A stretch of 64,000 bases of DNA, taken from a virus. Position numbers and translations under genes: made by a program. The stretch is from the IMG/VR virus record IMGVR_UViG_3300047443_000090, positions 23,260 to 87,259 of that record; one strand, written 5' to 3'. Below are positions 2,900 to 64,000 of the stretch, one piece after another; the stretch's first letter is position 1, and each line of letters begins with the position of its first letter. The notes under the pieces are model-generated. The model was not told where the DNA came from. It saw only the letters and a program-made list of their open reading frames with translations, and did not search any database.

Positions 2900-3037
2900 T
2901 TAGTTGGTGTAGGTGCCAGCGATCAGGCGGGCGGCGTAATGGTAAATGTGCTGGTCAATGACAGGTTGGCCGTACTGGGCGGCGAGGGCGGGGCGGCGCT
3001 CGCAGCACTTCTGCAACAGGATGGCGGTGATGCTCAT
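2900..3037 (-). CDS. Small hypothetical protein, 45 aa
   Basis: ATG 3037 is preceded by an AAGGA ribosome site 8-12 bases upstream, and the frame runs 45 codons to a TAA at 2900. The protein begins MSITAILLQKCCERRPALAA and ends LIAGTYTN. It has two adjacent cysteines and a likely helix. It fills an otherwise empty gap between the 270-residue gene and the 136-residue gene in the same unit. Function unknown. Confidence 0.6.
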   Translation of the reverse strand: MSITAILLQKCCERRPALAAQYGQPVIDQHIYHYAARLIAGTYTN

Positions 3038-3066
3038 GTGACTGTTCCTTTCGTGAGGTTGAAGTC

Positions 3067-3879
3067 TTACCACTTATACCCAAGGCGCTCGAAGAAGTCG
3101 CGCACTTCCTTGTGCGTGTCGAATTCGGAGGTGCAGCACAGGGAGCGTATCGCGAGGTCGGCCAGTTCCTCGGTTACTTCCGGCGTGCGCGGCTCGGCCA
3201 GCTCGGCGCGGCGGCCAGTCTCCATGAAGGTGTCAACCGCGTTGACCTCGGCACCGGCAATGGCATCCGTCAGGCGGATATCGTCGTCGTGCTCGGCGGC
3301 GGTGCGGTACATCGCCAGTTCCTGCACCTTCGTGCGCGGCTTCGGGTTGAGCACTTCCTTAGTGATTTCGTCCATGCGCGCGGCGATCATTATGCGGTCA
3401 ATGTGCTGGTCGATCAGCGCGGCCTCCGCGCGCTGCGCCGAATAGACATTGGTGCGCTTGGCGGCGGCGGCTTCAATCGCGATGCCGACGCACAGCAAGC
3501 CCTTGAGCATCATTTGCTCGCCCGGCAGGCCGCGCCACTGGTCGATGATGGCCTGCGTGCGTTCGGTGACGGTCAGCAAAGGGCCGGTGGTGGCAGCGGT
3601 GGAAAACTTCATATTTGGGGTGGCGGTGGAGAGCTTCATATTAGATTCCATAGTGGGTATGCGGCGTACTGGCTCGGCCATGCGCTCGCGGTGGGCCTCG
3701 ATGTCGGCCATGCTGATGTCGCTCTTGTCGGACAGCTTGTACGCGCCGGTCGCCAGCATTTCGGACAGCCATTCCTTCGCCTCGAATTCCTCGCCGTTGA
3801 CGCTGAATTCCTTGGCGCGCTCCGCGCCGATGTAGCCCTTGTAGCCGTACAGGGTGTGAATGACCTTGATCGTTTTCAT
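3067..3879 (-). CDS. Hypothetical protein, 270 aa, first gene of its unit
   Basis: The N-terminal part (1-75) starts MKTIKVIHTLYGYKG. Residues about 79-93 hold an odd doublet, MKLSTATPNMKFSTAAT, that looks like a short internal duplication. The remaining 170 residues are helical with two cysteines near the end (LCCTSEF). It is led by the promoter at 3929-3957. The middle resembles a helical domain (TERTQAIIDQWRGLPGEQMM) seen in phage accessory proteins, but I cannot assign it. Function unknown. Confidence 0.65.
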   Translation of the reverse strand: MKTIKVIHTLYGYKGYIGAERAKEFSVNGEEFEAKEWLSEMLATGAYKLSDKSDISMADIEAHRERMAEPVRRIPTMESNMKLSTATPNMKFSTAATTGPLLTVTERTQAIIDQWRGLPGEQMMLKGLLCVGIAIEAAAAKRTNVYSAQRAEAALIDQHIDRIMIAARMDEITKEVLNPKPRTKVQELAMYRTAAEHDDDIRLTDAIAGAEVNAVDTFMETGRRAELAEPRTPEVTEELADLAIRSLCCTSEFDTHKEVRDFFERLGYKW

Positions 3880-3928: not shown

Positions 3929-3957
3929 ACTGTATGCGCTCACGTTTACGGCGTCAA
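3929..3957 (-). promoter_or_regulatory. Early-type promoter with conserved operator, copy 2
   Basis: On the minus strand TTGACG (3957-3952), a 17-base spacer, TACAGT (3934-3929), with the invariant GTGAGCGCATAC block. The predicted start is near 3922, about 40 bases before ATG 3879. A plus-strand late-type promoter begins 22 bases to its right, so the two are divergent. Confidence 0.8.
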
Positions 3958-3979: not shown

Positions 3980-4020
3980 GGAAAACTGCGCGCGCTCCCG
4001 CGCAGGCCCGGCTTTACAGT
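3980..4020 (+). promoter_or_regulatory. Late-type promoter, copy I
   Basis: GGAAAA at 3980-3985, exactly 29 bases, then TACAGT at 4015-4020. This is the best -10 of the nine copies. The predicted start is near 4027. No gene begins for 200 bases, so the transcript would carry a long leader across the dif-like site before the small gene at 4233. Confidence 0.6.
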
Positions 4021-4152
4021 TCTACCCAGTCAACGGCGGGATTCCATTGATACCGGGCGCGAAGCCGGTCAGAGCGTGTTGCGGTGGTGCTGTTCACTGC
4101 GGCAAGCGCTGGTCGGTAGGACGGATTCGCGCAACACCCAAATTCGTTTTAT

Positions 4153-4205
4153 GATTATGCGAAGTTAAAAAGTCTTTTAAAATCAAACACTTACTTCGCA
4201 TAATC
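4153..4205. repeat. 13-bp perfect inverted repeat around an AT-rich loop
   Basis: GATTATGCGAAGT (4153-4165) and ACTTCGCATAATC (4193-4205) are perfect inverted copies separated by 27 bases. The right arm is the XerC half of the dif-like site. The left arm is a second, inverted XerC-like half without a recognisable XerD half. Folded as single strand, it would form a hairpin carrying a recombination site. Confidence 0.7.
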
Positions 4206-4220
4206 TTTCTTATGTCAAAT
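4193..4220 (+). other. dif-like XerC/XerD recombination site
   Basis: The 28 bases divide as ACTTCGCATAA (XerC half), TCTTTC (6-base centre) and TTATGTCAAAT (XerD half). The proteobacterial dif halves are RNTKCGCATAA and TTATGTTAAAT, so the left half matches fully and the right half differs at one base. On a plasmid such a site can resolve dimers or serve as a pdif recombination site; on some phages it acts as attP using host Xer enzymes. No phage recombinase was seen in the window. Confidence 0.7.
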
Positions 4221-4869: not shown

Positions 4870-5247
4870 CTAGAACAGGCTGGCTTGAACTGGAGCGGCG
4901 GGTGGCAATGGCGATGGGGCTTGCGGAGCTGGCGCAGGCGGCGCTTTCTCTGCTGCCGGGCGGGATAGGTTGCGTTCATGGATCGCGCGCAGCCGTAGCG
5001 CGTTCTGGCGCGTCCAGCTATCGCGCGGAAGGTGCGCCCCGGTCGATCCGTCCCAGTCAGCGAACACAGCGTCAAGGAACCCGATGCTGCCGGGGTGCTG
5101 GCGTTGCAGCTCCACCAGTTCATCGGCCCAGCGCTGCCATGTGTGGTCGTCAATGATAGGGTCGTCCAGCTCGTAGTACAGGTACGAGTGGACGAGAATT
5201 TGCGTGCGCCGCTGCCGGATGCGTTCAGCGGGTGTCTGAGGCGTCAT
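4870..5247 (-). CDS. LigA-related protein: orphan domain Ia of NAD-dependent DNA ligase, 125 aa
   Basis: The first 60 residues contain HSYLYYELDDPIIDDHTWQR followed by a helix with ELVELQRQHP. This matches the pattern of domain Ia of bacterial NAD-dependent ligases (YYxLDxPxIsDxxYDxL...EL..LE..P), which binds nicotinamide mononucleotide. The adenylation, OB-fold and BRCT parts are absent, and the C-terminal third is a Pro/Ala tail. Start ATG 5247 overlaps the upstream stop as ATGA. It cannot be a full ligase. It may modulate the host ligase or handle NAD/NMN (inference). Confidence 0.65.
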   Translation of the reverse strand: MTPQTPAERIRQRRTQILVHSYLYYELDDPIIDDHTWQRWADELVELQRQHPGSIGFLDAVFADWDGSTGAHLPRDSWTRQNALRLRAIHERNLSRPAAEKAPPAPAPQAPSPLPPAAPVQASLF

Positions 5248-5783
5248 TGGTGCCTTGCCTTCCCGCTTGCCAGCCCACCTGTTTGGGCAATCGACTGCAT
5301 ATGGCATTTCCGGCACCACAGCTCGGCGTCCTGATCGTCCGAATGAGGCATGTTGTGCTCATCAAAGTACATTTTTAGACCCTTGATGGCCCAAGGGCCA
5401 TGCGTTACCCCGCATTTTGTGCATTCAGAGCGGGCGGCGATTCGTTTCACGGCGGTCTTGTACGATGCAAACGAGGGCAGATTAGGTGTCGCGCTTCTGC
5501 GTCGAATTGATGAGCATTGCTTGCTGCATGTTTTGATTCTATCGGCTTTGCTCGGCGTCTGCTCCATCGGTTTATCGCACGTTACGCACGCAGAAATGAT
5601 CCGAACCTTGCTTCCTTCCGCTCGGCAGCCCATCCCGCAGTAGTTCACCGCAACTCTTTTTGCGTGCGAAGGAGCGCGGCGAAAACTATTCCCGCAAACC
5701 GGGCAGGACATAAGAATCCCTCCGCATCCAGAGCCAAGAGCGCCGACACCGATGTCTCTCGGAGATTTGTTATAGACCAGCAT
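5244..5783 (-). CDS. HNH-type endonuclease-like zinc protein, 179 aa
   Basis: Three cysteine clusters are present: CPVCGNSF with NYCGMGC near 27-55, CVTCDKP with CSKQCSS near 66-90, and a C-terminal pair ECTKCG and LWCRKCH framing DEHN. The last cluster has the treble-clef shape of HNH nucleases (CxxC, HN, WCxxCH). The nuclease His is not certain by eye. It has a good ribosome site (AGAGGGAAG). It looks like a selfish endonuclease gene inserted in the operon, since its neighbours are small early proteins. Confidence 0.55.
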   Translation of the reverse strand: MLVYNKSPRDIGVGALGSGCGGILMSCPVCGNSFRRAPSHAKRVAVNYCGMGCRAEGSKVRIISACVTCDKPMEQTPSKADRIKTCSKQCSSIRRRSATPNLPSFASYKTAVKRIAARSECTKCGVTHGPWAIKGLKMYFDEHNMPHSDDQDAELWCRKCHMQSIAQTGGLASGKARHQ

Positions 5784-21090: not shown

Positions 21091-21654
21091 CTAAAAACCG
21101 AAGTTCGAGGCGCAGATAGGGCCGATTCCTCTTTCGATAGAGTCTGGATCGGTCAGCTCTCGACCGCAGCAGGCGCAAATGCCGGTCTGCTGGCCGTAGG
21201 CGACTGCCGACTTGATCGGGTCAGCGCACAGCGTCACAATCTGCGCGCGCTGTTCGTCGCTGCAATCGCGCGAGCCGGTGAACTGGCCGTCAGCGATTTT
21301 GCCGAGGTATGCGTCGGATGCGGTGACGTAGATCGCGCCAGCGTTGCGCCCGGTGGCCGGGGCCATCTTCAGTACGAAATCGCCAAGGCGCAGTTTTGGA
21401 CGCTTCAGGCCGTTCTCGGTGGCCGTGGCGAAAGCGACTTGCACCGCGCCCACACCGGCAGAGCCGACTTCGACGCCAGCGGCGGCCACCGGGGCGGCAG
21501 CGTTGCGAGCGACGATCCGGGCGACCGCTGCAATCTGGTTATCGGTCAGCGTGCCCTTGGACTTCAGTTGACGATCCAGCGAGAACGCGAAGTCGTTAGA
21601 CGGCGCGTGCTGAATGATCCACTTGATTTCTGGTGCGTTTGACTTCAGTTCCAT
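21091..21654 (-). CDS. DUF6011-like zinc protein, 187 aa
   Basis: The C-terminal 35 residues read GICACCGRELTDPDSIERGI then GPICASNFG. This CxxCGRxLTDPxSxxxGIGPxC pattern is the DUF6011 domain, a zinc finger common in phage and mobile-element proteins. Before it is a Gly/Ala-rich domain with a beta core (LGDFVLKMAPATGRNAGAIY). It is the first gene of its unit. The zinc finger may bind DNA or replication proteins; function is not known. Confidence 0.7.
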   Translation of the reverse strand: MELKSNAPEIKWIIQHAPSNDFAFSLDRQLKSKGTLTDNQIAAVARIVARNAAAPVAAAGVEVGSAGVGAVQVAFATATENGLKRPKLRLGDFVLKMAPATGRNAGAIYVTASDAYLGKIADGQFTGSRDCSDEQRAQIVTLCADPIKSAVAYGQQTGICACCGRELTDPDSIERGIGPICASNFGF

Positions 21655-21685
21655 GACGGCCCCCGGTGCGTTGTTGATACTGCGT

Positions 21686-21714
21686 AGTGTATGCGCTCAC
21701 ACATTAAGCGTCAA
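21686..21714 (-). promoter_or_regulatory. Early-type promoter with conserved operator, copy 4
   Basis: On the minus strand TTGACG (21714-21709), a 17-base spacer, TACACT (21691-21686), with GTGAGCGCATAC intact. It drives the 21654-19504 unit. Confidence 0.78.
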
Positions 21715-21730
21715 GCTGTTTTTGGGGTAG

Positions 21731-21748
21731 CGCCCGGCGAACCGGGCG
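21731..21748 (-). terminator. Hairpin after the 22672-21755 gene, weak terminator
   Basis: CGCCCGG and CCGGGCG form a 7-bp stem with a four-base loop, seven bases after the stop at 21755. The stem core is the same as the terminator at 1877-1894, but no T run follows on the minus strand, so termination may be poor. It again sits right before an early-type promoter. Confidence 0.4.
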
Positions 21749-21754
21749 GTTTCA

Positions 21755-22672
21755 TTATTGCGGCTGTGCCGTCTTCGTCAAATCGGCCAGTTTTGCCGTG
21801 GATTCGTCAAGATAGCGCTTCCAGTACTCCGCGTCCTTATCTGATTCTGCCTTCTTCAGCAGCTTGGTATATTCCTTGATGTCGCGCTCGGCTCGCTTGA
21901 TGTCGCTGGCCAGCTCTTTGGCGGCTTTCTCTGCCTTCAGGCGCGGCAGATCGTCAATGCGGGCCAATTCCTTCAGGCAGGCCAAGCAGGTTACTTCTTC
22001 CCGGTTCTCGGTCGTCATCTTGTAGGTCTGCGCGCCCTGAGCGGAGGAAACGCAAGCACTGCTCTTGCGGCCATACCTAATTGCAGCGAAGTGCAGGCGA
22101 GGCGCATTGGCGGCCTTGTCGGCGGCGGTGACTGGCTTCAGCGGCTCCAGCTTCCAGTTGTTCAATCGGGCGGTCATGTACTCGATGCTCATTTCCGCTT
22201 CTTTGATGTTGCGGCGAAGGTGCTTGAGCCATTCTGCCGACAGCTCTTTGATGGCCGCTTCGATGGTCTTCGCATCGCTGTAGCTCTGCCATTTTTTCAC
22301 TTCCTTGCCTTGGGAGTCGATTGCTACCGGCAGGCCGCTTTCCGCCAGCTTTACAGTGACGAGGATAGGGTAGATCAGGTCGCCAGCGCGGGTAACTTGG
22401 CGGTACATCATGCGAATCTTGCCATCCTCGGCCAGCGGGTTCTTTTTCAGGGTGGCGATTTCGCCCTTCTTCGCGGCCACGTAGGCATTTGCGTGCTCGA
22501 TGCCGCGCGCCAGCAGGTCGCACGAAAGCTGGTAAGGCTTCGCGCCGGAACCGAAGCAAGCGCCTTGCTGCCAGCCGTTTTGGATCGTGTAGCCATGCTT
22601 GGCGATAGCGTGCTCGTGCGACTTCTGTTCACGCCCGCAAATCTGACAATTCCCGAAAAATTCAGCAGCCAT
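21755..22672 (-). CDS. Hypothetical coiled-coil zinc protein, 305 aa
   Basis: The N-terminus has a CxxC-type knuckle with histidines (GNCQICGREQKSHEHAIAKH). A second CxxC (VTCLACLKEL) lies near residue 230. The region about 150-180 and the last 60 residues (SDIKRAERDIKEYTKLLKKA) are strongly coiled-coil. It is the only gene of the unit under the promoter at 22701-22729. The arrangement suggests a DNA- or protein-binding early protein; no family recognised. Confidence 0.6.
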   Translation of the reverse strand: MAAEFFGNCQICGREQKSHEHAIAKHGYTIQNGWQQGACFGSGAKPYQLSCDLLARGIEHANAYVAAKKGEIATLKKNPLAEDGKIRMMYRQVTRAGDLIYPILVTVKLAESGLPVAIDSQGKEVKKWQSYSDAKTIEAAIKELSAEWLKHLRRNIKEAEMSIEYMTARLNNWKLEPLKPVTAADKAANAPRLHFAAIRYGRKSSACVSSAQGAQTYKMTTENREEVTCLACLKELARIDDLPRLKAEKAAKELASDIKRAERDIKEYTKLLKKAESDKDAEYWKRYLDESTAKLADLTKTAQPQ

Positions 22673-22804: not shown

Positions 22805-25159
22805 ATGGACAAATTCGCTTATATCGACCACGCCGCGCACTCCGGGGCGAACGGCAACAACCAGCGCCAAGAGGCGACGCAGGCCCAGCAGGACGCCGGG
22901 AACTATGCCAAGGGCCGCTTGACCCTGCATGGCCTGCGCATCGCCATCGAAACGCCGCGCGGCACCCGGCGCGAGTGGCGCGCAAAGGACGGCACCAGCG
23001 GTAGCAACCTGCTGAAGTTCCACTACGGGTACTTCGAGGGCATAAGGGGCGCTGACGGCGACGAGCTGGATTGCAGCATCGGGCCGTGGCCTGAAGCTCC
23101 GCTCGCTTACGTGGTGAACCAGTACATGCGCGGCCAGTTTGACGAGCACAAGGTAATGCTGGGGTTTCCAGACCGCCGCACGGCAATCGCTGGCTACCTG
23201 AGCAACTACAGCCCCGGCTGGCAGGGCATGAATAGCTGCATTTCCTGTTCGATATCGCAGCTCAAATGGTGGCTGGCAAACGGTAATTTGAAACGCCAGC
23301 TCACGCAAGATCAACTCCCCTATGAAGGAACGGACGACACGATGGAAAAGGTACTTTGGGATAGCGCGCACAATCCGATGCGCTCGACGCTCGACAAGGT
23401 TTTGTACAGCCTGCGCGAGCATGACGCGGGCAATGGCCTGCTGTTCGACGCGGTGAGCATGGCCGAGATTCTGGCCGACTCGGACGGCGTGATGACGCTG
23501 GACGCGCTGGTTCTCCCCTACGCCCGGATTGAGCAGCGCATGACGCTGCTGCAAAAGGTTCTGGATCGCGCGGGCGAAGCCGTCAAGGTGGCCGCTATGC
23601 AGGTGTCCGAGCCATTCACGCAGCGCGGCTCGACCAACGTCGCAGTAATCTACGAGCTGTCGGACGGCCAAACCATTTCTATTTTCTTCCACAATCCCGA
23701 TGTGACGCCGAAGAAAATCACGCCAAGCGATGACGTGATTTCGTGGAAATGGCTGTTGAACAAAAAGGACATCACCGTTGCTGTCGCGCCGGAACGTGGC
23801 CGCGACCTGGACGTTCGCACGGTGGCATCGCGCATCATGCGGCTGGCCGAGAAAAATAGCGCCCGGTTCATCGCCGCCAACGGCAAGCGCGCCGAAAAGC
23901 TGCAAGTGATTTCCGACCTGAAGGGCGAGCTGGAAACGAAGAAAGAAACCCTGAGCGGGCTGGAGCGCCAGATTGAGGTTGCGATGCAGGAGCGCGAGCT
24001 GGCGGGCTTGGACGAGCCGCCAGAGCCTATCGTCCCGCCCGAGCCTGAACCGGAACCGGCCCCAGCGGCTACGCTGAACGTGGACGGCATCAAGGCCGTG
24101 ATTACGTCTGACGAGCCTATGCCGGGCGTCGCCGTGGGCGCGAACTGGGTAGTGATGAACGCCCCGCGCCCGCTGCTGGGCACCGAAACGATGTCCGATG
24201 GCGAATTCCTCGACGGTCGTTTCTACGCTGCCATCGACCCGAACGACTACATGGCGCAAGCCTACGTCGATGCGAACGTGAAGCTCGCTGCGAGCGTGGT
24301 GTTCGTGGCTGACGAGGCGACGCAGACCGAAATGGCGCTCAACACGATCAATCAGGACTACCTGCCCGCCTACATGAAAATGGACGAAGGCGAGCGCAAG
24401 ACGGCTCTGAGCGGCTTCATCGCCAAGCTCAACGGCTTCACCTATGGCGCGATGAAGGAGCTGGCCGCCAAGGGTATGCCGGTGGTAGCGGAGCCAGAGC
24501 CGGAACCGCAGCCAGAACCCGAGCCGAAGCCCGAGCCTGCGCCTACGTGGCGCAGCAAGTACATCGTGATCGAGTTGGTTGACCGATTCCGCGTCGCTGG
24601 CCTCAATGCCAACCCGATCAGCCCGTCCTACCCGACGCGCGCCGAAGCCGAGGCCGCTGCCGCCGCCTATTTCGCTGGCGGCGACAACTTCCCGGCACCG
24701 TCCGACTCCGACGAATTCGCGGCGCAAGAGGCTGAAAAGTTGGCTGCTGAAAAGCGGGCCGCCGAGCAGGCCGCACGCGAAGCCGCCGAGCAGGCCGAGC
24801 GCGATGCAGAGGCGGCACGCCAAGCCGAGGCAGCAGCGCAGGCGCAGCGCGACGCGGAGGCCGCCGCAGCCAACGAGGCAGCCAATATTGTAGTGCCGGT
24901 TGCAGAGGTAGCGCCGCAGCCTGAGCCTGTAGTGGAGCCAAGCGCGACCGGCGACAATCAAGAAGCTGCCGATGGCGATTTCCTCGCGCTGGCGGCAGCG
25001 GGCGACGTGGATTTCTACGATAAGGCCGTAACCGACCGCCTCGCCGCACTGGCGAAGCAATACACCGACCCCGAAGGCGCGTATCTCGATCTGGTCATGC
25101 AGGCCAAGACCGCCGCCAAACAGTTCTTCATCGCTGAGTTCAAAAAGAAGGTGGCCTAA
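22805..25159 (+). CDS. Polyvalent protein: InPase-like plus DarA-N-like domains, 784 aa
   Basis: Residues about 37-165 match the polyvalent 'InPase' domain: GADGDELDCSIGPWPEA, YVVNQYMRGQFDEHKVMLGF and a GW..S..KWWL end. Residues about 180-395 resemble the N-terminal domain of P1 DarA, with LSDGQTISIFFHNPD, SWKWLLNKKDITVAVAPERG and a conserved AEKNSARFIAAN helix. Two Pro/Glu linkers (about 407 and 570) and a long Ala-rich coiled coil (610-700) follow. By analogy with P1 it would be packaged in the head and injected to protect phage DNA from restriction (inference). Leads the locus. Confidence 0.7.
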   Translation: MDKFAYIDHAAHSGANGNNQRQEATQAQQDAGNYAKGRLTLHGLRIAIETPRGTRREWRAKDGTSGSNLLKFHYGYFEGIRGADGDELDCSIGPWPEAPLAYVVNQYMRGQFDEHKVMLGFPDRRTAIAGYLSNYSPGWQGMNSCISCSISQLKWWLANGNLKRQLTQDQLPYEGTDDTMEKVLWDSAHNPMRSTLDKVLYSLREHDAGNGLLFDAVSMAEILADSDGVMTLDALVLPYARIEQRMTLLQKVLDRAGEAVKVAAMQVSEPFTQRGSTNVAVIYELSDGQTISIFFHNPDVTPKKITPSDDVISWKWLLNKKDITVAVAPERGRDLDVRTVASRIMRLAEKNSARFIAANGKRAEKLQVISDLKGELETKKETLSGLERQIEVAMQERELAGLDEPPEPIVPPEPEPEPAPAATLNVDGIKAVITSDEPMPGVAVGANWVVMNAPRPLLGTETMSDGEFLDGRFYAAIDPNDYMAQAYVDANVKLAASVVFVADEATQTEMALNTINQDYLPAYMKMDEGERKTALSGFIAKLNGFTYGAMKELAAKGMPVVAEPEPEPQPEPEPKPEPAPTWRSKYIVIELVDRFRVAGLNANPISPSYPTRAEAEAAAAAYFAGGDNFPAPSDSDEFAAQEAEKLAAEKRAAEQAAREAAEQAERDAEAARQAEAAAQAQRDAEAAAANEAANIVVPVAEVAPQPEPVVEPSATGDNQEAADGDFLALAAAGDVDFYDKAVTDRLAALAKQYTDPEGAYLDLVMQAKTAAKQFFIAEFKKKVA

Positions 25160-61741: not shown

Positions 61742-62605
61742 CTATTGCTTTGGCAGCGCCCGAACCCGGATGACGGAAACAACGTCCGACACCGGGTCTA
61801 TGTTCCAGTGGGATAGAAAGCCGCAGTCCTTCAGCTTTTCGAGTGCTTTTTTCAGCAGGCCACGAAACGAGCGCAGTTCCTTGCACTTCGAGCCGCATAG
61901 GCCATACAGCGTTTCAACGCGATATTGGAATGGCTCGCGGTGCGTGAAGTAGAAGCTGTGCAGCCATTTTGCCAGCGGCGTAAGTACAAGCCGCTGATCC
62001 CAGTCCACTAGCGTGTAGCCATCGGATGCGAAAAGCGCGACGATTTCCCGCTCAAGGTAGATCGTCCATTCCGTACTCGCGCCGCCGCCAGTTTCATCTT
62101 CATCTATCGACCATTTGACTTTCCGAAGTAGGCTGCCAGTGAAGCCCTTGCGGCCATCGGCCCTTGCAACGATCACGGTTGACTCGGACAGGCGCAGCAG
62201 CGATTCGCGTAGGCGTGCATAGTCTTGCTTTCCGCGCCCCCACCGCAAGGCCATCAGCATGCGATGCGCTGTAGTCTTAGCGCCTTCCTCGGTGCTTCGC
62301 AGCCGGGCGATATGCACCGCCTGCAAAAAAACGTCCTCGTCATCCTGCCGCAATTCCTCGCCGGTATAGTAGAGATCAAACCCGTTCACGGTGGCGATCC
62401 GCATTCGCTTCATTGTGTCGCGCGGCTCTTTTTTGCCTGCCGCCGTGAAAAGTGCGCTACGTGCAAATGGGTTTGGTATGCCGCGTTGCTCGTCGGGCCA
62501 TAGGGGGAGCTGCACCGGGGCGGCGACCACGCGCCGCTTTTCTTGGAGGCGCTTTGCGGCGTCAATGAGGCGGCTGCTATTTTCGTTGTGCTCGTCTTGG
62601 CTCAT
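61742..62605 (-). CDS. trfA: TrfA-family plasmid replication initiator, 287 aa
   Basis: The N-terminal part carries the TrfA signature RGIPNPFARSALFTAAGKKE near residue 40. Two winged-helix domains follow (TVNGFDLYYTGEELRQDDED; LARSALF-type turn; LTPLAKWLHSFYFTHREPFQ and a RSFRGLLKKALEKL helix near the end). I chose ATG 62605 (MSQDEHNENS) because the longer frame to 62737 is a translation of the iterons. TrfA binds iterons, opens the origin and loads DnaB, and sets copy number. The iterons lie directly upstream. Confidence 0.85.
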   Translation of the reverse strand: MSQDEHNENSSRLIDAAKRLQEKRRVVAAPVQLPLWPDEQRGIPNPFARSALFTAAGKKEPRDTMKRMRIATVNGFDLYYTGEELRQDDEDVFLQAVHIARLRSTEEGAKTTAHRMLMALRWGRGKQDYARLRESLLRLSESTVIVARADGRKGFTGSLLRKVKWSIDEDETGGGASTEWTIYLEREIVALFASDGYTLVDWDQRLVLTPLAKWLHSFYFTHREPFQYRVETLYGLCGSKCKELRSFRGLLKKALEKLKDCGFLSHWNIDPVSDVVSVIRVRALPKQ

Positions 62606-62623
62606 GCTGTCCTGCTGGTGGCG

Positions 62624-62810
62624 TTCGTGTTTTGAGCTGCGGTAGTTGCTTGCTGCCAGAGCTGCGGCCCCGGTTCGTGTTTTGAGCTGCGCCCCGGTTC
62701 GTGTTTTGAGATTCGATATTCGTGTTTTGAGCTGCAAAAACCGATTTCATTCGTTCTTTGAACTGCGGTCTATCGTGTTTTGAACTGCGGCAATTCGTGT
62801 TTTGAGCTTC
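62624..62810 (+). repeat. Seven direct iterons, 17 bp, consensus TTCGTGTTTTGAGCTGC
   Basis: Copies start at 62624, 62674, 62698, 62719, 62750, 62772 and 62794. Three are perfect (62624, 62674, 62719); 62698 and 62794 differ near the end; 62750 and 62772 are more diverged. The last copies are spaced 21-31 bases, close to two helical turns, as expected for cooperative binding by a TrfA-like initiator. Confidence 0.85.
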
Positions 62811-62932: not shown

Positions 62933-63526
62933 TCAGGCTTCCGCATCCGGCGAATAGTGCTTTGCGATCAGCGCATCAACATACCCAGTGACCGCTTTTT
63001 CCAGTGCTACCTGAATCGAACGGTGCTTCGGGACGTTATCGGCTACCCATGCAAGCTTTGCATGCAGGGCTCTCGACATTCTGAAATTGTACCCAACAAT
63101 GCTATCCGGGCTCTCGACTTCCCAAGGGGCTGGTTCTGCGGGCGCTGGAGGCTCTTTCGGCGCGTCGGTGGCGCGTTTATGCGTATGAGGCTGCGCGTCG
63201 CTTGTAGGTGGCTTCTCGGCCCTCCCATCGACCTTCGGCTTGCGAGCGGGTTTGTCCTGGCTGTTCGCGGCTGTAGCTGCCGCTGGTTGCGCGGATAATT
63301 CTGGCAGCGCTTCAGCAAGCGCGGCATCTTTGGCCGCTTGCGCTGCGGGCGGCAGGGGTGGCGTGCTGGTAGCTGCCTGCGCAGGCGTTGTCGCCTCTGC
63401 TGGCGAGGTCAGTGCTTCGACAGGCTTGCCAGCCGGGTTTATCGCCAGATGTTCTTCGGGGAGGTTGTTGGCGGCGGCCACGAAATCGGCGGGCGACCGA
63501 AAGCCCTTTTTCGCTGGCTTGTTCAT
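62933..63526 (-). CDS. ParB-like centromere-binding partner, 197 aa
   Basis: ATG 63526 overlaps the parA stop as ATGA, with AGAGG upstream; ATG 63532 is the alternative. The N-terminal 25 residues (MNKPAKKGFRSPADFVAAAN) are basic and could contact ParA. A long Pro/Ala linker follows. The C-terminal 60 residues (IVGYNFRMSRALHAKLAWVA then IQVALEKAVTGYVDAL) look like a ribbon-helix-helix DNA-binding domain. Paired with ParA it would segregate the plasmid. No classical ParB HTH or CTPase domain is present. Confidence 0.6.
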   Translation of the reverse strand: MNKPAKKGFRSPADFVAAANNLPEEHLAINPAGKPVEALTSPAEATTPAQAATSTPPLPPAAQAAKDAALAEALPELSAQPAAATAANSQDKPARKPKVDGRAEKPPTSDAQPHTHKRATDAPKEPPAPAEPAPWEVESPDSIVGYNFRMSRALHAKLAWVADNVPKHRSIQVALEKAVTGYVDALIAKHYSPDAEA

Positions 63527-64000
63527 GCCCATACCTCTTTCGCCAGTGCGCGCATTTCTTCGGCGGCCTTTTCGTCGCCCCTGATGTACTCGACCGCTGC
63601 CATTCCATCGCGCGCGCAGAGCCGGTACGTCTTGCGGTCTTTCACGATGGTATCGAGCATGGTGTAGTTCTTCAGTTCCTCAACAAAATCGGCCATTTCC
63701 TGCGCATCCGTCATCCTCGGGTTCGTCGGCGCGATGTTGGTCAGGATTGCCGCTTGCAGGTTGACGTTGAACGCTCTTGCCTCGGCTACCAGCTTGTCCA
63801 TCTTCGACAGCGTGAACACGTCGAACTGGGACGGCTTCGCAGGCGTCACGATGGCGTCAGCGACCAGCATCCCGGCGCGCAGCTCCAGAGAATCCACGCC
63901 TCCAGCGTCTATCACGATGTCATCGAACTTACCGGCCAGCCGCCGCACCTCGTCGGCCAGCGTGGAGCCGTACACCGACACGCAAGTGATGTGGGGTGTG
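63523..64000 (-). CDS. parA: ParA-family partition ATPase, N-terminus outside the window
   Basis: The frame is open to the window edge, so the Walker A motif is not visible. Seen are FDDIVIDAGGVDSLELRAGM (Walker B-like, with DAGG in place of the common DTPP/DxG), ADAIVTPAKPSQFDVFTLSK and LQAAILTNIAPTNPR, in the order of ParA/MinD ATPases. The C-terminal helices follow normally. It would drive plasmid partition with the partner encoded downstream. A GTG at 63981 is not a credible start. Confidence 0.75.
   Translation of the reverse strand, partial: TPHITCVSVYGSTLADEVRRLAGKFDDIVIDAGGVDSLELRAGMLVADAIVTPAKPSQFDVFTLSKMDKLVAEARAFNVNLQAAILTNIAPTNPRMTDAQEMADFVEELKNYTMLDTIVKDRKTYRLCARDGMAAVEYIRGDEKAAEEMRALAKEVWA

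Follow-up and report, generated by a model that had tools for sequence, protein, structure and literature searches.

A predicted XerC/XerD dimer-resolution site beside an IHF consensus in a P1-like phage-plasmid that encodes no tyrosine recombinase

How does a P1-like phage-plasmid that encodes no tyrosine recombinase stay monomeric? The question is raised by a dif-like site in virus record IMGVR_UViG_3300047443_000090 (G000; record length 87,259 bases). Bases 23260-87259 of this record, 64,000 nucleotides in all, were analysed as the window, and positions are those of the window unless the record is named. The ends of the record are identical over 127 bp and parA reads across the join. The genome is thus a circle of approximately 87,132 bp, although the record is classed as linear. 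The identical ends, the ParA over the join and a TrfA-type replication initiator (Table 1) support the label of phage-plasmid that an earlier, sequence-only reading had given to the element. G000 encodes a baseplate protein related to P1 BplA (24% identity) and a DarA-like protein. At 22805-25159 a DarA N-terminal domain is fused to an inorganic-pyrophosphatase-like domain, and a short ORF at 4870-5319 contains only the N-terminal NAD-binding domain of DNA ligase (PF22745). A search with the product of the gene that bounds the site region upstream (Table 1) found no relatives.

The claim that a dif-like XerC/XerD site lies at 4193-4220 is confirmed. ACTTCGCATAA-TCTTTC-TTATGTCAAAT is found there exactly on the plus strand, letters and coordinates both being right, and it has the xrs layout of matching 11-bp arms around 6-8 bp. 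The XerD arm has a single difference from that of E. coli dif, a C in place of T. The scoring matrix was made from the 24 beta- and gammaproteobacterial chromosomal dif sites published in Table 1 of PMC2731167. The site scores 37.5 bits, within the range of the 24 training sites themselves (29.6-41.6 bits). The runner-up in the 87-kb record is the same site on the opposite strand (14.0 bits), and 4193-4220 is the sole match in the record at three mismatches or fewer. A chance match is ruled out by shuffling. The top score was 18.8 bits in 100 dinucleotide shuffles of the whole record and 25.8 bits when the surrounding AT-rich 142 bp were shuffled 2000 times, with no shuffle equalling the site. 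Judged by its sequence, 4193-4220 is a real XerC/XerD-type site.

Table 1. Features of the site region and of the carrier, in window coordinates
Feature	Position	Strand	Remarks
Gene divergent from the site region, bounding it upstream	3067-3879	-	270 aa, no Pfam match
Conserved XerC-side (accessory-type) region	3985-4192	+	From the TAGGAAAAC block up to the XerC arm
Stem element, closing stem GCGCGAA...TTCGCGC	4057-4132	+	Variable interior; 9/9 family records examined, again in G024
Palindrome TCGACAATA-N7-TATTGTCGA of relatives	4140-4166	.	Degenerate in window: AAATTCG..CGAAGTT
Perfect 13-bp inverted copy of XerC arm + 2 bp (GATTATGCGAAGT on +)	4153-4165	-	0/20000 shuffles
Perfect IHF consensus WATCAANNNNTTR (AATCAAACACTTA)	4181-4193	+	A-tract before it; abuts the XerC arm
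XerC-type arm ACTTCGCATAA	4193-4203	+	Sequence exact; matrix score; same as Thiobacillus/Methylobacillus dif XerC arm in Table 1 of PMC2731167
6-bp central region TCTTTC	4204-4209	+	Differs from usual dif TGTATA
XerD-type arm TTATGTCAAAT	4210-4220	+	Same as XerD arm of both Burkholderia mallei dif sites in Table 1 of PMC2731167
TrfA-type replication initiator	61742-62737	-	PF07042, E 4e-30
ParA, C-terminal part	63523-63999	-	Continues across the record join; 42% identical to ParA-family protein in L045

The site is kept in the same place and orientation in relatives. A terminase search of IMG/VR (record gene g28) gave five loci, one being a 5.6-kb fragment with 100% identity and the others longer relatives, four in number, with 80-88% identity, and a dif-like site is present in all four of the latter. 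It lies between homologues of g48 and g52 in G012, G013, G014 and G015, oriented as in G000. Paraburkholderia sp. C35, Undibacterium crateris and further viral contigs were obtained through terminase alignment, and the Burkholderia vietnamiensis plasmid pBVIE05 through the baseplate. The site is in the terminase-baseplate interval of G019, pBVIE05 and contig C141 of C35, again in the orientation of G000. The diverged site of G024, CCGGTTGATAA-CTTTGT-TTATGTCAACT, was not found by the strict patterns and was located through the stem element, just downstream of which it lies. Absence of the site from collinear relatives would have spoken against the sequence-only reading. An Xer-type site is borne by 8/8 non-integrated relatives that hold the interval and have a terminase at least 60% identical (G012-G015, pBVIE05, G019, C35 and G024). 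All eight were found by terminase or baseplate and not by the site; G013 and G015 are near-identical at the site and share one sequence there. Two other loci, L159 and L171, were retrieved by the site pattern and give no independent support for its presence.

Among the distant TrfA relatives chosen by Rep (L052-L061), the strict pattern found the site in 0/10 and a looser pattern in 1/10 (G001). Some of these records have dif-like places below threshold near trfA. No site was found in the terminase-relative fragments L062, L075, L077, L079 and L080 (4-11 kb), in G021 (45 kb, 48% terminase identity) or in G025 and G026 (52%). A 628-kb contig of Undibacterium crateris (L128-L133) contains an integrated P1-like prophage with collinear structural genes, traceable over approximately 484-562 kb. 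In this prophage a tyrosine integrase frame of 387 aa lies near 568 kb, and neither an Xer site nor the stem element was found at the homologous place. The Rep and ParA of G000 have no tblastn match in the 120 kb examined.

The XerD arm of the family is TTATGTNAAAT (TTATGTCAACT in G024) and the XerC arms are varied, so that the XerD arm is the better conserved, a difference that the search pattern partly builds in for some records. The XerC arm tracks the type of host, with TCGCATAA in some sites and TCGATAA or TTGATAA in (Para)burkholderia. The dif of Undibacterium (AGTTCGCATAA) carries TCGCATAA, like the site of the window. In pBVIE05 the site is CTGTTCGATAA...TTATGTCAAAT, with TCGATAA as in the dif of B. 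mallei, whose XerC arm contains TCGATAA and whose XerD arm is TTATGTCAAAT in Table 1 of PMC2731167. The site of the C35 phage contig is GAGTTTGATAA...TTATGTCAAAT, of the TTGATAA type. Other Xer-like places in the C35 genome read GTTGATAA and GGTGATAA, and TTGATAA recurs at one of them. An Xer-like site at approximately 21.8-24.3 kb of another C35 contig (G016:C165, L100) lies near two tyrosine recombinase genes. The central hexamers of the family are TCTTTC, TCTATC, TTAGCA, TTGTAT, TTTAGT, GTTTGA and CTTTGT. None is the usual TGTATA, and all differ from the dif centres tabulated in PMC2731167, among which TTTATC of Ralstonia is near.

Conservation of the flanks is one-sided. The XerC side is conserved over approximately 220 bp in 6/6 close family members (L159 and L171, retrieved by the site pattern, are among the six), and the XerD side is at background immediately. 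The conserved XerC-side DNA is predicted to act as accessory DNA. The cer site of ColE1 and the psi site of pSC101 likewise have two 11-bp Xer arms and approximately 200 bp of accessory sequence on the XerC side, and the accessory sequences of small enterobacterial plasmids work with ArgR or ArcA plus PepA (PMC11724359). An ArgR or ArcA accessory box was rejected here, the best matches in 12 records having at least 4 (ArgR) and at least 5 (ArcA) mismatches to the E. coli consensus. Only three perfect IHF matches occur in the G000 record, and one of them adjoins the site (Table 1). This consensus begins at -11 to -14 in the close clade; the close relatives share its fixed bases and differ at its four N positions (ACAC, AGAC, CGGG, AGGC, TGAC). 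The consensus is missing at the sites of pBVIE05, G019, C35, G024 and the Pseudomonas plasmid W02, and the family as a whole therefore does not depend on it. The locus thus differs from cer and psi in its 87-kb phage-plasmid carrier, the IHF consensus by the XerC arm, the lack of a good ArgR or ArcA box and the extra stem element.

The closing stem of that element has the family form GCGCRAA/TTYGCGC. One pair is changed on both sides, from G-C to A-T, which gives thin evidence for a possible fold, and the stem segment of the window folds only slightly better than shuffles (z -1.96). The expression used for the element was composed after several members had been seen, with a background of approximately one chance match per 64 kb by a hand estimate. 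An Rfam search of eight loci gave matches that were all far below gathering scores, and a known RNA family in the site region was rejected. The 13-bp inverted copy (Table 1) corresponds to 4193-4205, lies 27 bp upstream and is found only in the phage of the window, where relatives have the palindrome. A lox-like arrangement of this repeat was also rejected because its arms point outward and it is absent in relatives.

Tyrosine recombinases were sought with PF00589 in 20 records, in 23 records and in G000 itself. The profile search gave 0 matches in the whole G000 record and none in G012-G015, G019, G024, pBVIE05, G027 and G030. There is none on contig C141 of C35, whose matches all sit elsewhere. 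The sequence-only reading had stated that no recombinase is visible. This holds for tyrosine recombinases over the whole record and fails for a serine recombinase of the small resolvase/invertase type at record positions 21614-22261 (PF00239, E 3.8e-39). Its gene lies 5.2 kb away from the site, beyond the edge of the window by approximately 1 kb, so the statement is true of the window only.

Large records that have the site and no PF00589 match are G000, G012, G014, G015, pBVIE05, W02 (site ACTTCGCATAA-TACCGA-TTATGTTAAAG), G024 and C35 C141, together with G027 (L159), G028 (L166) and G029 (L045). No convincing site was found in P1 and six P1-like records that are PF00589-positive (G025, W03, W04, W05, W07 and W08); W08, which has a tyrosine recombinase, shows a one-mismatch match of no more than 14.8 bits. 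The P1-like W06, W09, W10 and W11, and also G021, lack both a convincing site and a tyrosine recombinase. Both an IHF-Xer site and a tyrosine recombinase occur in G031 (L156, 51.5 kb, three matches) and G037 (L165, 19 kb, one). Site and tyrosine recombinase are not perfectly exclusive of each other. For this reason, and because the records are related to each other, no p-value is claimed.

The best explanation is that 4193-4220 is a dimer-resolution site for host XerCD, of the accessory-sequence type and probably with IHF, in place of the Cre-lox of P1. We consider this likely because the site scores in the dif range, is kept in place and orientation, has a XerC arm that follows the host and is carried by a record without a tyrosine recombinase. 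Further grounds are the conservation of the XerC flank only, the IHF consensus, a GC skew of one sign on both sides of the site and the lack of the site in the integrase-bearing prophage. The comparison also supports the earlier suggestion that the element may use the host Xer system, given the site kept in relatives, the host-type XerC arm and the missing tyrosine recombinase. Host XerC would act on the arm at 4193-4203 and host XerD on that at 4210-4220. Together they would recombine two direct copies and turn dimers produced by homologous recombination into monomers, the same job as that of Cre-lox in P1. Control would probably lie with the conserved XerC-side region and not with FtsK/KOPS. 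IHF would bend the DNA beside the XerC arm, in the role of ArgR or ArcA in cer and psi, and the atypical six central bases would prevent crossovers between the element and chromosomal dif. We infer the binding of XerCD and IHF, the recombination, its direction and its purpose from these comparisons. Against this reading stand the gaps in the IHF consensus, the records with neither system (W06, W09, W10, W11) or with both (L156, L165), W08, and the report that enterobacterial plasmids of 30-100 kb are usually without xrs (PMC11724359).

The serine recombinase of G000 and its close relatives could also resolve dimers. It would then form the dimer-resolution system with a res site of its own, and the Xer site would be a back-up, much as plasmid R27 has two redundant systems (PMC11724359). 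Homologues 72-76% identical are encoded by G012, G013, G014 and G015. However, no common region that might be a conserved res site is seen by eye upstream of the gene among G000, G012, G014 and G015. The homologue in pBVIE05 is only 31% identical and on the opposite strand, and searches of stretches of G019, C35 and G024, which have the Xer site, found no homologue at E 1e-5. We consider such a division of labour unlikely.

IHF motifs beside Xer sites are also found in other viruses. ATCAANNNNTTR lies 0-14 bases before the GCATAA of a dif-like site in 27 IMG/VR stretches, several of them near-identical to one another or already-known family members, versus 1 for a scrambled motif. The spacing is -11 to -14 in the phage-plasmid family, L045, L153, L155, L156 and L166, and -18 to -21 in many smaller phages. 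L045 and L166 are large contigs unrelated to the phage-plasmids. There are 38 stretches with the mirror pattern, IHF being on the XerD side (26/38 at one fixed spacing), so that IHF is not found on the XerC side only. Terminase homologues are present in 26/38 XerD-side loci and 13/23 XerC-side loci (the 27 stretches minus four family loci), mostly 0.3-3.5 kb off. Loci in which a perfect IHF consensus stands at a fixed distance from a dif-like site near a terminase include L018, L024, L030, L049, L162, L180-L214 and others. L045, a 98.7-kb viral contig, has the same IHF-XerC-6-XerD order at approximately 3007-3044 in a different ParA-bearing element without a tyrosine recombinase. It is possible that the terminase-adjacent IHF-Xer sites of unrelated tailed-phage contigs serve Xer-dependent circularisation or lysogeny.

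The lox site of P1, which is near pac, can circularise an infecting linear genome. The site of G000 might likewise act mainly in circularisation, as the position of Xer sites near terminase homologues in many unrelated phages would suggest. In records that hold both, the large terminase gene starts approximately 11-16.5 kb upstream of the site, and a headful phage could duplicate a site so placed in its terminal redundancy. That this is its main role seems improbable to us, and circularisation is in any case compatible with dimer resolution and not exclusive of it.

Control of the chromosomal kind is less probable still. FtsK would then activate recombination and the upstream conservation would reflect gene regulation only; on visual inspection, 3929-3957 resembles a sigma-70 promoter directed leftward. 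The 28 bp, the 6-bp centre and the dif-range score are shared with chromosomal dif and with the FtsK-type xrs of megaplasmids. However, the unusual centre and the 87-kb replicon set the site apart. FtsK controls the xrs of enterobacterial replicons larger than 250 kb, and xrs of this type belong to large replicons, all above that size (PMC11724359). There is no GC-skew switch at the site, and conservation reaches the XerC arm and stops at the XerD arm.

The sequence-only reading had also allowed for integration at the chromosomal dif. The site would then be an attP used by host XerCD, as in the IMEX filamentous phages, where a dif-like attP is well known (PMC5357621) and which, like this phage, lack an integrase; terminase-adjacent dif-like sites with IHF motifs are moreover common in other viral contigs. 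We regard this as very unlikely, since the element has Rep and ParA genes for plasmid replication and partition, pBVIE05 is a free, circular 88-kb plasmid record that keeps its own site, the central hexamers are unlike the dif centres tabulated in PMC2731167, and the sole integrated relative found encodes its own integrase and lacks a site of this kind. No copy of the clade integrated at dif was seen among the few genomes available. Movement of pdif-type modules is not supported, because the record has a single 28-bp Xer site and no module between two sites, unlike the Acinetobacter plasmids that carry such modules.

A dimer-resolution site for host XerCD belongs to a known class, the xrs. What is new is that such a carrier is combined with an apparent IHF partner and a stem element. 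The carrier resembles P1 in its BplA-like baseplate protein, DarA-like protein, ParA and single site per genome, and it differs in having an Xer-type site and no tyrosine recombinase. PepA and ArgR are reported to have no regulatory effect on Cre at loxP (PMC2409434). The word 'phage' is absent from the main text of PMC11724359, and IHF is not mentioned in the available text of PMC5357621. No description of an Xer site on a phage-plasmid, or of IHF as an accessory of Xer sites, was found in titles and abstracts of the open-licence literature.

A wider proposal is put forward tentatively, as one somewhat more apt to fail than to hold. These sites may form a phage-specific class of Xer site in which IHF, and not ArgR or ArcA, is the XerC-side accessory. 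In Burkholderiales P1-like phage-plasmids this class would replace Cre-lox, with an upstream structured RNA or DNA element taking part in control (compare the Rcd RNA of ColE1). The pairing of IHF and Xer on either side would mark a wide terminase-adjacent class through which integrase-less tailed phages could circularise or establish lysogeny by means of host XerCD.

The site suggests a way in which P1-like phage-plasmids outside the enterics may remain monomers although they encode no tyrosine recombinase. It also suggests that such a site has to suit the Xer specificity of each host, which may limit host range. If the link with IHF is true, it would be a third accessory system for plasmid Xer recombination, and many other phages seem to bear IHF-coupled Xer sites by their terminase genes.
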